IMG/VR virus record: IMGVR_UViG_3300030522_000007
Span: 1 to 57,362 of that record
Source: a virus
Strand: one strand, 5' to 3'
Length of the DNA stretch: 57,362 nt
Under the pieces are notes generated by a model that did no database searches, was not told the DNA's origin, and saw only the letters and a program-made list of their open reading frames with translations. Positions within the stretch are counted from its first letter, which is position 1, and each line of letters begins with the position of its first letter. Position numbers and translations under genes: made by a program. Of this stretch, positions 24,022-32,624 are shown in pieces.

Positions 24022-25823
24022 GCGCCCGCCAGTTCATCTTGCCACTGGCCGCCGGCCTGATCGTCGACTTGTTCGCTGGCGGCGGCGGCATGTCCGAGGC
24101 ATTCCAGCAGGCGCTGGGCCGGCACGTCGATATCTCAGCCAACCACAACGACGACGCTTGCAGCATGCACGCAGTCAACCACCCGCAGACGAAGCACTAC
24201 ATCGCGGACGTGTTCGAGGTGTGCCCGAGGTTGACCACGCACGGCGTGCCGGTGTGGTGGCTGCACTTGTCGCCCGACTGCACCCATCACAGCCAAGCCC
24301 GTGGCGGGCAGCCGCGCGATGAACGCATCCGTGGGCTGTCCTGGGTGGCGATCCGTTGGGCCGGCCAGGTGGGGCCCGACGTTATCTCGCTTGAGAACGT
24401 CAAGCAGATCACCCAGTGGGGCCCGCTCATCGCCAAGCGCGACGCGGCGACTGGCCGCGTGGTCAAGCTCGACGGAACGGTGGCCGAGCCAGGTGAGCAC
24501 GTGCCGCGACGCCGGCAGTTCCTGGTGCCCGACATCAAGCGGGCCGGCGAAACGTGGCGCCGCTTTGTGTTCATCCTGGAGAGCCTGGGCTACGTGGTGG
24601 AAACCAAGGTTCTCTGCGCCGCCGACTTCGGCGCGCCCACCACGCGCGAACGCCTGTTCATGGTGGCCCGCCGCGACGGCAATCCGATCTGCTGGCCCGA
24701 GCCGACCCACTTCAAGGACCCGAAGAAGGGCCAACAGCGGTGGCGTGCCGCTGCCGAATGCATCGACTGGTCCATCCCCGGCCGCTCGATCTTCGACCGT
24801 CCGAAGCCACTGGCCGAAGCCACGCTGCGCCGGGTGGCGCACGGCATGAAGCGTTACGTGCTCGACAGCGGCGACCCGTTCATCGTGCCCGTGACCCACA
24901 GCGGCGGCATCCGCGTGCACGACATCAACGACCCGCTGCGAACCATCACCACCGCCCAGCGCGGCGAGTTCATGGTGGCCGCACCTGTCATGGTGCAGGC
25001 TGGGCACGGCCATGGCAAGCCAGGCGCTCGCCGCTGGAGCTACGGTGCGACCGACATCGAGCAGCCGGTGGGCACGATCACCGCCAGCGCTGGCGGCCAC
25101 GCCCTGGCGGCGGCCACGCTTGTGCAGGTGGGCTACGGCGAGCGCGAAGGCCAGGCGCCCCGGGCGCTCGACCTGGGCCTGCCGCTCGGCACGGTGGTGG
25201 CTGGCGGCGGAAAGCATGGCGCGGTGACAGCCTTCATGGCCCAGGCCAACGCCGGCTTCAACACCACGCCGGGCCACGACATCCGCCGGCCGCTGACGAC
25301 GGTGACGAACACCGGCAGCCAGCAGCAGCTGGTCACCGCTCACCTCGCGCACCTGCGCGGCAACTGCGATGCGCGGGATCTGCGCGAGCCGCTGCGCACG
25401 GTCAGCGCTGAGGGCCAACACCACGGTCTGCTTGAGTACACGCTCAGCAAGGAACACGAGGACGGTGCGCTGCGCTGCGCGGCGTTCCTGATCCGCTACT
25501 ACGGCGATGGCGGCCAGTGGAGCGATCTGCGCGACCCGATGGCCACGATCACCACGAAGGACCGGCTTGCGCTGGTCACGGTGTGGCTCAAGGGCGAGCC
25601 ATGGGTGGTGGTGGACATCTGCCTGCGCATGCTCACACCGCGCGAGCTCTACAACGCGAACAGTTTCCCCGCCGGCTACGTCATTGACCGCGGACACGAC
25701 GGGCGCGTGTTCACGAAAGAGAAGCAGGTGCGCATGTGCGGCAACAGCGTGCCGCCACTGCTGGGGGCCGCCCTCATCCGCGCCAACGACACCGAAGGCC
25801 TGGCACTGAAAGCCGCAGCATGA
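24018..25823 (+). CDS. DNA (cytosine-5) methyltransferase
   Basis: A protein of 601 residues; the ATG at 24018 overlaps the previous stop. It has motif I DLFAGGGGMSEAF, the catalytic Cys in SPDCTHHS (the phage variant of PPCQ), motif VI ENVKQI, motif VIII TTRERLFMVARR and motif X GNSVPPLLGAAL. The target-recognition region (about 300-510) holds six repeats of the form D(I/L)xxPxxT(I/V). It methylates phage DNA, probably to evade host restriction. Full-length with all motifs, so likely active. Confidence 0.92.
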   Translation: MSARQFILPLAAGLIVDLFAGGGGMSEAFQQALGRHVDISANHNDDACSMHAVNHPQTKHYIADVFEVCPRLTTHGVPVWWLHLSPDCTHHSQARGGQPRDERIRGLSWVAIRWAGQVGPDVISLENVKQITQWGPLIAKRDAATGRVVKLDGTVAEPGEHVPRRRQFLVPDIKRAGETWRRFVFILESLGYVVETKVLCAADFGAPTTRERLFMVARRDGNPICWPEPTHFKDPKKGQQRWRAAAECIDWSIPGRSIFDRPKPLAEATLRRVAHGMKRYVLDSGDPFIVPVTHSGGIRVHDINDPLRTITTAQRGEFMVAAPVMVQAGHGHGKPGARRWSYGATDIEQPVGTITASAGGHALAAATLVQVGYGEREGQAPRALDLGLPLGTVVAGGGKHGAVTAFMAQANAGFNTTPGHDIRRPLTTVTNTGSQQQLVTAHLAHLRGNCDARDLREPLRTVSAEGQHHGLLEYTLSKEHEDGALRCAAFLIRYYGDGGQWSDLRDPMATITTKDRLALVTVWLKGEPWVVVDICLRMLTPRELYNANSFPAGYVIDRGHDGRVFTKEKQVRMCGNSVPPLLGAALIRANDTEGLALKAAA

Positions 25824-30556: not shown

Positions 30557-30982
30557 ATGATCTACGAAGACATCGCCCGGATCTGCCACGAGGCCAACCG
30601 AGCCCTTTGCATCGCAGCCGGCGACCTGAGCCAACGCGAGTGGGCCGAGGCCCCGGCGTGGCAGCGCGACTCGGCCATTGCCGGTGTCGAGTTCCGCGAC
30701 CGCAACCCGCACGCACCTGCCAGCGCCACGCACGACGCCTGGAGCGAAGCCAAGACGCGCACCGGCTGGGTGTACGGCGAAGTGAAGGACGAGAACGCCA
30801 AGACGCACCCGTGCCTGGTGCCGTTCGAGCAACTGCCGCCGCACCAGCGCGCGAAGGATGTGCTGTTCGGTGCCATTTGCTCAGCCCTGCTGCCGCTGGC
30901 CCAGCCGCCGGCCGACAACGCGCATGTGGCGCCCGGCGCCTCCCTGTTCGGTGAGCCCGAGGCCTGCCAGACCGCGCCCTGA
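30557..30982 (+). CDS. RyR-domain protein
   Basis: A protein of 141 residues. The ATG at 30557 follows GAAAGGAG at 30540-30547; an in-frame GTG at 30509 is less likely. The RyR repeat pattern covers most of it: IYEDIARICHEANRALCIAA, then HDAWSEAKTRTGWVYGEVKD, KTHPCLVPFEQLPPHQRAKD. In bacteria and phages this domain has been predicted to bind nucleotide-type ligands in conflict systems (family knowledge, function unproven). It lies 50 bases before a short unknown gene and the Tad2-like gene. Confidence 0.8.
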   Translation: MIYEDIARICHEANRALCIAAGDLSQREWAEAPAWQRDSAIAGVEFRDRNPHAPASATHDAWSEAKTRTGWVYGEVKDENAKTHPCLVPFEQLPPHQRAKDVLFGAICSALLPLAQPPADNAHVAPGASLFGEPEACQTAP

Positions 30983-31033: not shown

Positions 31034-31318
31034 ATGATCAAACCCACCATCGGCCGCAGAGTCTGGTTCTGGCCCAACGGCAGCACCGCGGTCGGCGCAA
31101 CGTCGGTCACAGTCATCGACGCGGCACAGCCATTCGATGCCGGAATCGTCTTCGTCTGGAACGACCGCATGGTCAATCTGGACGTGAAGGACCACTACGG
31201 CAAGGCCGCATCGGCCACCAGCGTGACGCTGCTGCAGGAAGAAGATTCAATCCCGCAGATCGGGTTCTACGCGACCTGGATGCCGTACCAAACAGGCCAA
31301 GCCAAGGCGGCGGCATGA
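31034..31318 (+). CDS. Small conserved phage protein, SH3-like
   Basis: A protein of 94 residues. Beta-rich: PTIGRRVWFWPNG, FDAGIVFVWNDRMVNLDVKD, and an end WMPYQTGQAKA that recurs in many phage genomes. Function is not known. It lies between the RyR gene and the Tad2-like gene and is coupled to the latter (ATGA at 31315). Confidence 0.7.
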   Translation: MIKPTIGRRVWFWPNGSTAVGATSVTVIDAAQPFDAGIVFVWNDRMVNLDVKDHYGKAASATSVTLLQEEDSIPQIGFYATWMPYQTGQAKAAA

Positions 31319-31674
31319 GCGGGTCCACTTTCGAGCGAGGCGACCGGCAGCATGGCGCGTTACTCGGCGGCCTCGAACAAGCGGCGAACGCTTGCGGCCA
31401 AGGCTACAGCGAGCCGCCCTATGTCCGCACGACAGTCGATGTGCGCGCGACGGCCAGCTTTGGCGAAGCGCTGATGGCGATGCGCGGCGGACAAAAGATT
31501 ACGCGCCGCGGCTGGAATGCAAGCGATCAATGGGTCGCCGTGCATCACCCACTCAAAGGCGCCTTCATCAGCGTGCCATTCGCCTGCCTGAAGAACTCGC
31601 GCGGAGATATGGTGCCGTGGGTGCCAAGCCAGGGCGATATGTTCGCCGAAGACTGGGCAATTCTGCCGGGCTAA
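31315..31674 (+). CDS. DUF2829/Tad2-like anti-defence protein
   Basis: A protein of 119 residues. Residues about 49-119 follow the DUF2829 pattern: FGEALMAMRGGQKITRRGW, then ISVPFACLKNSRGDMVPWV, then PSQGDMFAEDWAIL. Family members called Tad2 inhibit the Thoeris defence by sequestering its signal, a glycocyclic ADP-ribose (established for the family). This copy has an extra 48-residue N-terminal stretch that the shortest members lack. Whether it binds the same ligand is inference. Confidence 0.8.
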   Translation: MSGSTFERGDRQHGALLGGLEQAANACGQGYSEPPYVRTTVDVRATASFGEALMAMRGGQKITRRGWNASDQWVAVHHPLKGAFISVPFACLKNSRGDMVPWVPSQGDMFAEDWAILPG

Positions 31675-31676
31675 CC

Positions 31677-32129
31677 ATGCTCAAGAGCCGCGGCTTCCAG
31701 CCCCAGCGCCCACCGGCGCGCGACCGAACGGATGAGTTCAAGTCATTCGTCCTGCCGCGGCCGGTGGCGCGCATGGCTGGCGCCGCGGACATGGCCAGGC
31801 TTGCGCCTGCGCTGTTGGCGCCCATCGACCACTACAAGCCGGCAGCCACCGATGCTGCCGGCGCGCGGCACATGGGAAAGGTCGCTGCCCTGGGCTGCGT
31901 GCTCTGCCGGCGCCTCGGGCTTGGCACCACCGCGGCCGAGGTGCACCACGTGCGCGAGGGCCAGGGTGGAGCCCAACGCGCGAGCGACTTCCTTTCCGTG
32001 CCGCTCTGCCCGGAACACCACCGCGGCAATAGCGGCCTGCACGGGCTGGGCACCCGCGCCTTCGAGCGCCGGTACGGCATCGACGAACTCGGCCTGCTGG
32101 CCGAAACCATTGCGGAAATCACAGCGTGA
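31677..32129 (+). CDS. Ref-like HNH nuclease
   Basis: A protein of 150 residues starting ATG at 31677. The C-terminal 80 residues have the Ref/HNH pattern: HMGKVAALGCVLCRRLG, EVHHVREGQGGAQRASDFL, PLCPEHHRGNSGLHGLG, ERRYGIDEL, with paired cysteines for zinc. P1 Ref is a RecA-dependent nuclease (family knowledge). The N-terminal 65 residues are a disordered tail. It probably acts in recombination or host-DNA cutting. Confidence 0.75.
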   Translation: MLKSRGFQPQRPPARDRTDEFKSFVLPRPVARMAGAADMARLAPALLAPIDHYKPAATDAAGARHMGKVAALGCVLCRRLGLGTTAAEVHHVREGQGGAQRASDFLSVPLCPEHHRGNSGLHGLGTRAFERRYGIDELGLLAETIAEITA

Positions 32130-32335
32130 AGCGCCGCCCCAAGCCCACCAAGCGCCAGCGCCAGAAGCGCGAGCACAAGGTGCACCGCGACCGGCTAAGC
32201 GCTGGCCGCGTCTTCCGGGTGCGCCCAAACCCTGCCGAGCCGTTCATCGTCGAGGTCCGCCTTTGCGCGCGACGGCCGGCGCATGCGAGGCCTGATGAAC
32301 TTCCACGACGGCCAGGCCTTGACCGCCGACATTGA
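32126..32335 (+). CDS. Small very basic protein, unknown
   Basis: A protein of 69 residues with a GTG start overlapping the Ref-like stop. The first 30 residues are almost all Lys and Arg (MKRRPKPTKRQRQKREHKVH). The last third overlaps the next gene by 53 bases and may be less constrained. Likely nucleic-acid binding, otherwise unknown. Confidence 0.5.
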   Translation: MKRRPKPTKRQRQKREHKVHRDRLSAGRVFRVRPNPAEPFIVEVRLCARRPAHARPDELPRRPGLDRRH

Positions 32336-32624
32336 GCGCACCGTCATGGGCCTAGTGCGCACTTGGTACGGAAAGCGCACTCGCCGCGAAGCCGTGACCC
32401 GCCCGCGCGGCCTGGTCGCCCGCATGTACCTCAACGTGCGCGACCTTCGCGACAAACCCGGCGAAATCATCGCCCACGAGTGCACGCACGCGGCCATGGG
32501 CTACAGCCGGCTGAAGCGCGCGAACCTAGACGTCATGCCCGGCGAAGAAGTCCTGGCGCACGCCGTTGGCCGCCTGGTGAGCCAGGTCAACCGAATCTGC
32601 TACGCGCACGGAGTGTGGTCATGA
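32283..32624 (+). CDS. Small zinc-metallopeptidase-like protein
   Basis: A protein of 113 residues; the start is ATG at 32283, or 32295. The motif IIAHECTHAAMG contains HExxH at about residues 62-66, typical of zinc peptidases, and a following Glu in PGEEVLAHAVGRL could be the third ligand. It has no signal peptide, so it acts inside the cell. Small phage peptidases of this kind are seen near replication or packaging genes; substrate unknown. Confidence 0.65.
   Translation: MRGLMNFHDGQALTADIERTVMGLVRTWYGKRTRREAVTRPRGLVARMYLNVRDLRDKPGEIIAHECTHAAMGYSRLKRANLDVMPGEEVLAHAVGRLVSQVNRICYAHGVWS

Follow-up and report, generated by a model that had tools for sequence, protein, structure and literature searches.

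The Tad2 family and the RyDEP family are the closest described relatives of the genes considered here, and both act on small nucleotide signals of antiviral defence. Among Tad2 proteins the ligand varies, gcADPR being bound by the SPO1 protein and His-ADPR by ModTad2 (PMC13299392). The gcADPR pocket is formed by the β1-β2 loop, the β3-β4 loop, strand β4, the β4-α3 loop and helix α3, while a long insertion between β2 and β5 has been tied in a review to the binding of cyclic dinucleotides by Tad2 (PMC12043709). RyDEP proteins, which are phage RyR-domain anti-Thoeris proteins, were described in a preprint of May 2026 (PMC13232231). The first RyDEP described acts as a glycosidase and opens 2'cADPR as well as 3'cADPR, homologues sequester both molecules, and Thoeris is evaded by either kind; residues H75, W78, H100 and D117 are ligand-contacting or catalytic (PMC13232231). 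A further family, PF13876, is that of the anti-CBASS sponge Acb4 (PMC11722364).

This study examined a window of 57,362 nucleotides, the whole of the analysed stretch of IMG/VR virus record IMGVR_UViG_3300030522_000007, and focused on a Tad2-like gene and the two genes upstream of it. A preliminary description had proposed the first of these as an anti-Thoeris candidate, with a complete DUF2829 core and an N-terminal extension of about 48 residues that could change ligand or partner, but did not include the RyDEP-family and phrog_2293 neighbours. The three genes together probably form a counter-defence cassette against TIR/Thoeris-type signals, with a compact Tad2 sponge as its last member.

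Results

The Tad2-like gene

The open frame at positions 31315 to 31674 (plus strand) specifies a protein of 119 aa. Residues 48-116 matched the Tad2-like profile PF11195 with 70.8 bits (E 1.4e-19), against a curated cut-off of 25 bits, and the alignment spanned profile positions 2-72 of 73, so that the core is complete, as had been described. Profile alignment and model confidence place this compact core domain at 31456 to 31662. A single-sequence query of the PDB recovered ModTad2 (9eib, E 3.2e-9), SptTad2, SPO1 Gp34.65 and AcrIIA7/HgmTad2. In an AlphaFold2 model built from 60 sequences the core reached a pLDDT of about 90, and in a Foldseek comparison with the PDB ranks 1-24 were all Tad2/AcrIIA7 structures (TM normalised by target, 0.59-0.86), including SPO1 Tad2 with and without gcADPR (the 1''-3' gcADPR complex). 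Core residues R64, G66, W67, N68, P101, W102, S105, Q106, D108, D113 and W114 were kept, and with them the motifs RxGWN, PW, SQxD and DW. Sequence and predicted fold thus confirm the product as a Tad2-family protein, with agreement well above what chance would give. Searches of NCBIfam and PADLOC gave zero matches for the gene, no close relatives were found in bacterial genomes, and plasmids gave no match.

The window copy shares the full domain, the fold and the RxGWN, PWxxSQxD and DW motifs with SPO1 gp34.65, ModTad2, SptTad2 and HgmTad2/AcrIIA7, but differs from the solved proteins in being compact, in its β1-β2 loop and in its orphan N-terminal extension. Alignments with the solved chains and with relatives showed that about 13 residues are missing after strand β2, and the insertion that marks the cyclic-dinucleotide subtype is absent. 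Compact members were common among the collected relatives, and compactness alone is not unusual. The β1-β2 loop reads NASDQ, the usual form being NGKGM/L. Position 69 is A in the window copy and G in 58 of 59 aligned relatives, a figure somewhat inflated because part of the sample was retrieved by a pattern containing that G, and position 70 is S in place of the K of most aligned relatives. The earlier statement that family members sequester the Thoeris signal was too simple: gcADPR (SPO1), His-ADPR (ModTad2) and, in members with the long insertion, cyclic dinucleotides are all bound within the family, and the β1-β2 loop of the window copy is unusual. Since the ligands of SPO1 Tad2 and ModTad2 differ, that of the window copy is not assignable from family alone.

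The N-terminal extension

Residues 1-42 (31315 to 31440, plus strand) precede the core, and their coding status is uncertain. The ATG at 31315 is the earliest possible start and overlaps the upstream stop codon as ATGA, which favours the long, 119-aa form; an in-frame GTG at 31441, which has no clear ribosome site, would give a plain compact core of 77 aa. The extension of about 48 residues therefore stands if translation begins at the ATG, and falls away if the GTG is used. Homologues were sought in phage records, where one chance match (E 8) was the only hit, and in viral contigs, where there were none. The tblastn alignments that entered the extension read through stop codons and lay upstream of the annotated starts in other phages. 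The codon score was about zero (-0.10 bits per codon, compared with +0.36 for the core), and model confidence was mostly below 55, with pLDDT values of about 39-54 over the first 40 residues. The lack of relatives, the stop codons, the low pLDDT and the weak codon signal speak against a conserved domain, and the extension did not match the N-terminal domain of phrog_872 or phrog_1048, of which it might have been a relic.

The extension is probably translated, but is probably not a defined module. Were it a functional module with an effect on ligand, oligomer or partner, this would accord with the ATGA-overlapping first start, with a possible helix at residues 10-28 of the model, and with the fact that other Tad2 proteins bear N-terminal domains, the YLVEY-type one of phrog_872 among them. 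However, the extension is unlike all of these domains, and given its orphan sequence, low model confidence and near-zero codon score such a role is improbable; the proposal that it alters ligand or partner found no support.

The two upstream genes

A RyR-domain gene of the RyDEP family (PF02026, 48.9 bits) lies at 30557 to 30982 on the plus strand, begins with ATG preceded by AAGGAG, encodes 141 aa, and ends about 330 bases upstream of the Tad2-like gene. Its residues H59, W62, H84 and D101 have spacings of 3, 22 and 17, identical to those of the ligand-contacting or catalytic H, W, H and D of RyDEP, and all four are invariant across 11 aligned phage sequences. At the level of these residues, the protein could either degrade its signal or merely bind it.

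Between this gene and the Tad2-like gene is a member of the phrog_2293 family (31034 to 31318, plus strand; E 2.1e-4), a protein of 94 aa (KPTIGRRVWF...WMPYQ). The gene order is RyDEP family, a gap of 51 bases, phrog_2293, the ATGA overlap, and Tad2. The 33 viral relatives of the phrog_2293 protein shared 37-57% identity with it, and the motifs KPTxGRxVW and WMPYQ are common to its relatives. The AlphaFold2 model (pLDDT 86.5) has five strands and a C-terminal helix, which the authors would read as SH3-like in outline. A convincing match was absent from both the PDB (best E 0.11) and viral models (best E 0.0065), so that function cannot be read from the structure.

Remainder of the window

One stretch of DNA in the structural genes shared 81% identity with Acidovorax phage AP1, and the terminase shared 57% identity with a terminase from a Rubrivivax MAG; together these suggest a host among the Burkholderiales. 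Directly 3' of the Tad2-like gene (31678-32129) is a RecA-dependent-nuclease/HNH-like protein with at least 593 viral relatives, a common phage gene. The stretch from the cassette to the terminase genes also includes a phrog_1365 ORF of 113 aa (32283-32624) whose HECTH motif is metallopeptidase-like. At about 24393-24889 the DNA shares 73% identity with the cytosine methyltransferase gene carried by Pseudomonas phage F116.

The same partnerships in other phages

In other phages the components of the cassette recur in different orders, together on one strand. The nearest parallels to the window trio are loci L268, L423, L350 and L281. In L268, a terminase relative, phrog_2293 is followed by a PF13876-RyR fusion and a compact Tad2, with ATGA overlaps throughout; L423 has Acb4-family PF13876, RyR and Tad2 in a row, and L350 has phrog_2293, RyR and PF13876. 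RyR is paired with phrog_2293 in L281 (in the order RyR, phrog_2293) and in L309. Another terminase relative, L023, carries phrog_2293 and Tad2 in one ORF of 325 aa, followed by a PF13876 gene. Tad2 precedes phrog_2293 in L117 and in mycobacteriophage Curiosium (gp4 and gp5, the latter matching phrog_2293 with 121.8 bits), and precedes an Acb2/Tad1 hairpin gene in MalagasyRose. A PF13876-RyR fusion occurs in Vibrio phage 1.151.O, and RyR is fused to the Acb2/Tad1 hairpin domain in Sulfitobacter phage phiCB2047-B (L275, 2477-3043). Coliphages sortkaff and IME_EC2 share an upstream flank of 1.3 kb with 75.6% identity, and the gene slot that follows it is filled by RyR in sortkaff and by Tad2 in IME_EC2. 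In related loci PF13876 thus adjoins, or is fused to, each of Tad2, RyR and phrog_2293; a profile search of the window itself did not find this domain.

Profiles for six domains were compared over loci that took in about 3 kb of flanking sequence, after removal of near-duplicates, and 67 loci around other phage genes served as controls. PF13876 was near phrog_2293 in 20/85 loci and 0/67 controls (p 3.4e-6), near Tad2 in 11/85 and 0/67 (p 0.0025), and the Acb2/Tad1 hairpin was near RyR in 7/69 and 0/67 (p 0.013), with p-values that ignore shared ancestry among loci and come from several pairings examined; the strongest would survive correction for their number. Tad2, RyR, PF13876 and the hairpin were each absent from all 67 control loci, and no neighbouring pair lay on opposite strands. 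Around unbiased Tad2 loci neither phrog_2293 (1/85) nor RyR (0/85) was significantly enriched, so the exact trio of the window is uncommon. A RyR profile search, shown to work on the window, on L255 and on the record of L025, found nothing in 50 Tad2 records and 37 phrog_2293 records.

Fusions within single ORFs joined phrog_2293 to PF13876 in 20 cases (14 clusters at 90% identity), three of which were confirmed with both Pfam and PHROGs. The others were phrog_2293-Tad2 (3), PF13876-Tad2 (2), PF13876-RyR (2), RyR-hairpin (2) and YLVEY-type-Tad2 (13). Two ORFs that combine Acb4-family PF13876 with a compact Tad2 (L120, 2686-3249, and L193, 2737-3240) are possible two-signal sponges. The YLVEY-type domain is the front half of phrog_872, and its fusions to Tad2 include L117 (2791-3237) and L007 (4800-5300); it is also fused once to PF13876 and once to the Acb2/Tad1 hairpin, and phrog_18865 appears to link it to RyR, making it a second candidate accessory domain.

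In Aeromonas phage Ahp1_CNU-2021 (L272, 2483-4411), a compact Tad2 gene is followed, after 115 bases, by a gene for nicotinamide phosphoribosyltransferase, and RyDEP has been reported within an NAD-rebuilding NARP1 operon; a pairing with genes for NAD recovery may thus be shared by the two anti-Thoeris families.

Discussion

By itself the Tad2-like gene is an ordinary new member of its family. Its anti-Thoeris candidacy is supported by sequence, by fold, and by the RyDEP-family neighbour, and the locus is best read as a cassette in which two known anti-Thoeris families are joined by an uncharacterised partner. The TIR-domain defence proteins of Thoeris would make an NAD-derived alarm molecule, which the compact Tad2 sponge would bind and withhold, so that the suicide effector stays inactive. 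The RyDEP-family, phrog_2293 and Tad2-like genes are probably expressed together. The RyDEP-family protein may degrade or bind 2'/3'cADPR, Tad2 may bind the same ADPR signal or a related one, and phrog_2293 might serve either as a third sponge or as a scaffold to the other two. TIR-made ADPR signals would then be lowered in two ways, by breakage or binding through the RyDEP-family protein and by binding through Tad2.

It is possible, though rather less probable than not, that the Tad2 fold has been kept while the pocket was retuned to another nucleotide, such as His-ADPR or an unknown TIR product, and that the defence countered by the protein is not type I Thoeris. Ligands already vary among Tad2 members, the NASDQ loop lacks the NG that is nearly invariant elsewhere, and the insertion tied to cyclic-dinucleotide binding is missing; on the other hand, every other core motif residue is kept, and the RyDEP-family neighbour points to cADPR isomers. 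That the protein is not an anti-Thoeris sponge at all is very unlikely. The presence of AcrIIA7/HgmTad2 among the fold and sequence matches raises the thought of a CRISPR-Cas9 inhibitor, AcrIIA7 being a Tad2-fold protein, and the diverged β1-β2 loop that of a decayed copy, but the open frame, whole domain and conserved motifs carry no signs of decay, and the neighbour from a nucleotide-signal family argues against both.

Because phrog_2293 is fused to sponge domains again and again, the most economical inference is that it acts in counter-defence, as sponge or scaffold. It is tentatively proposed, at somewhat less than even likelihood, that the family is a new nucleotide-signal sponge or a dedicated sponge scaffold, which many phages join to Acb4, Tad2 and RyDEP by fusion or within an operon, and that the window holds a multi-signal cassette built with it. 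The clustering might instead reflect small phage genes piling up in the same places, with phrog_2293 doing something unrelated, perhaps as part of the virion, as it can adjoin portal and capsid genes and most of its loci have no known sponge within 3 kb. This is rather unlikely, however, given that the 67 control neighbourhoods were devoid of the sponge domains and that phrog_2293 is joined within single ORFs to PF13876 and to Tad2. The cassette pattern and the involvement of phrog_2293 are new: in the openly readable papers covered, neither a link between phrog_2293 and nucleotide-signal sponges nor such fusions were found.

So far, the phage genes known to blunt nucleotide alarm signals have mostly come to light singly. 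The loci compared here show that Tad2, RyDEP, Acb4-type and Acb2/Tad1-type domains swap as neighbours and as fused pairs, and the logic of the cassette, together with phrog_2293, merits follow-up more than the Tad2 gene itself. Laboratory strains with Thoeris or CBASS in which the cassette can be tested already exist. Should this pattern prove general, an unknown domain seen repeatedly joined to sponge families would become a ready counter-defence candidate, and phrog_2293 is the clearest of these.
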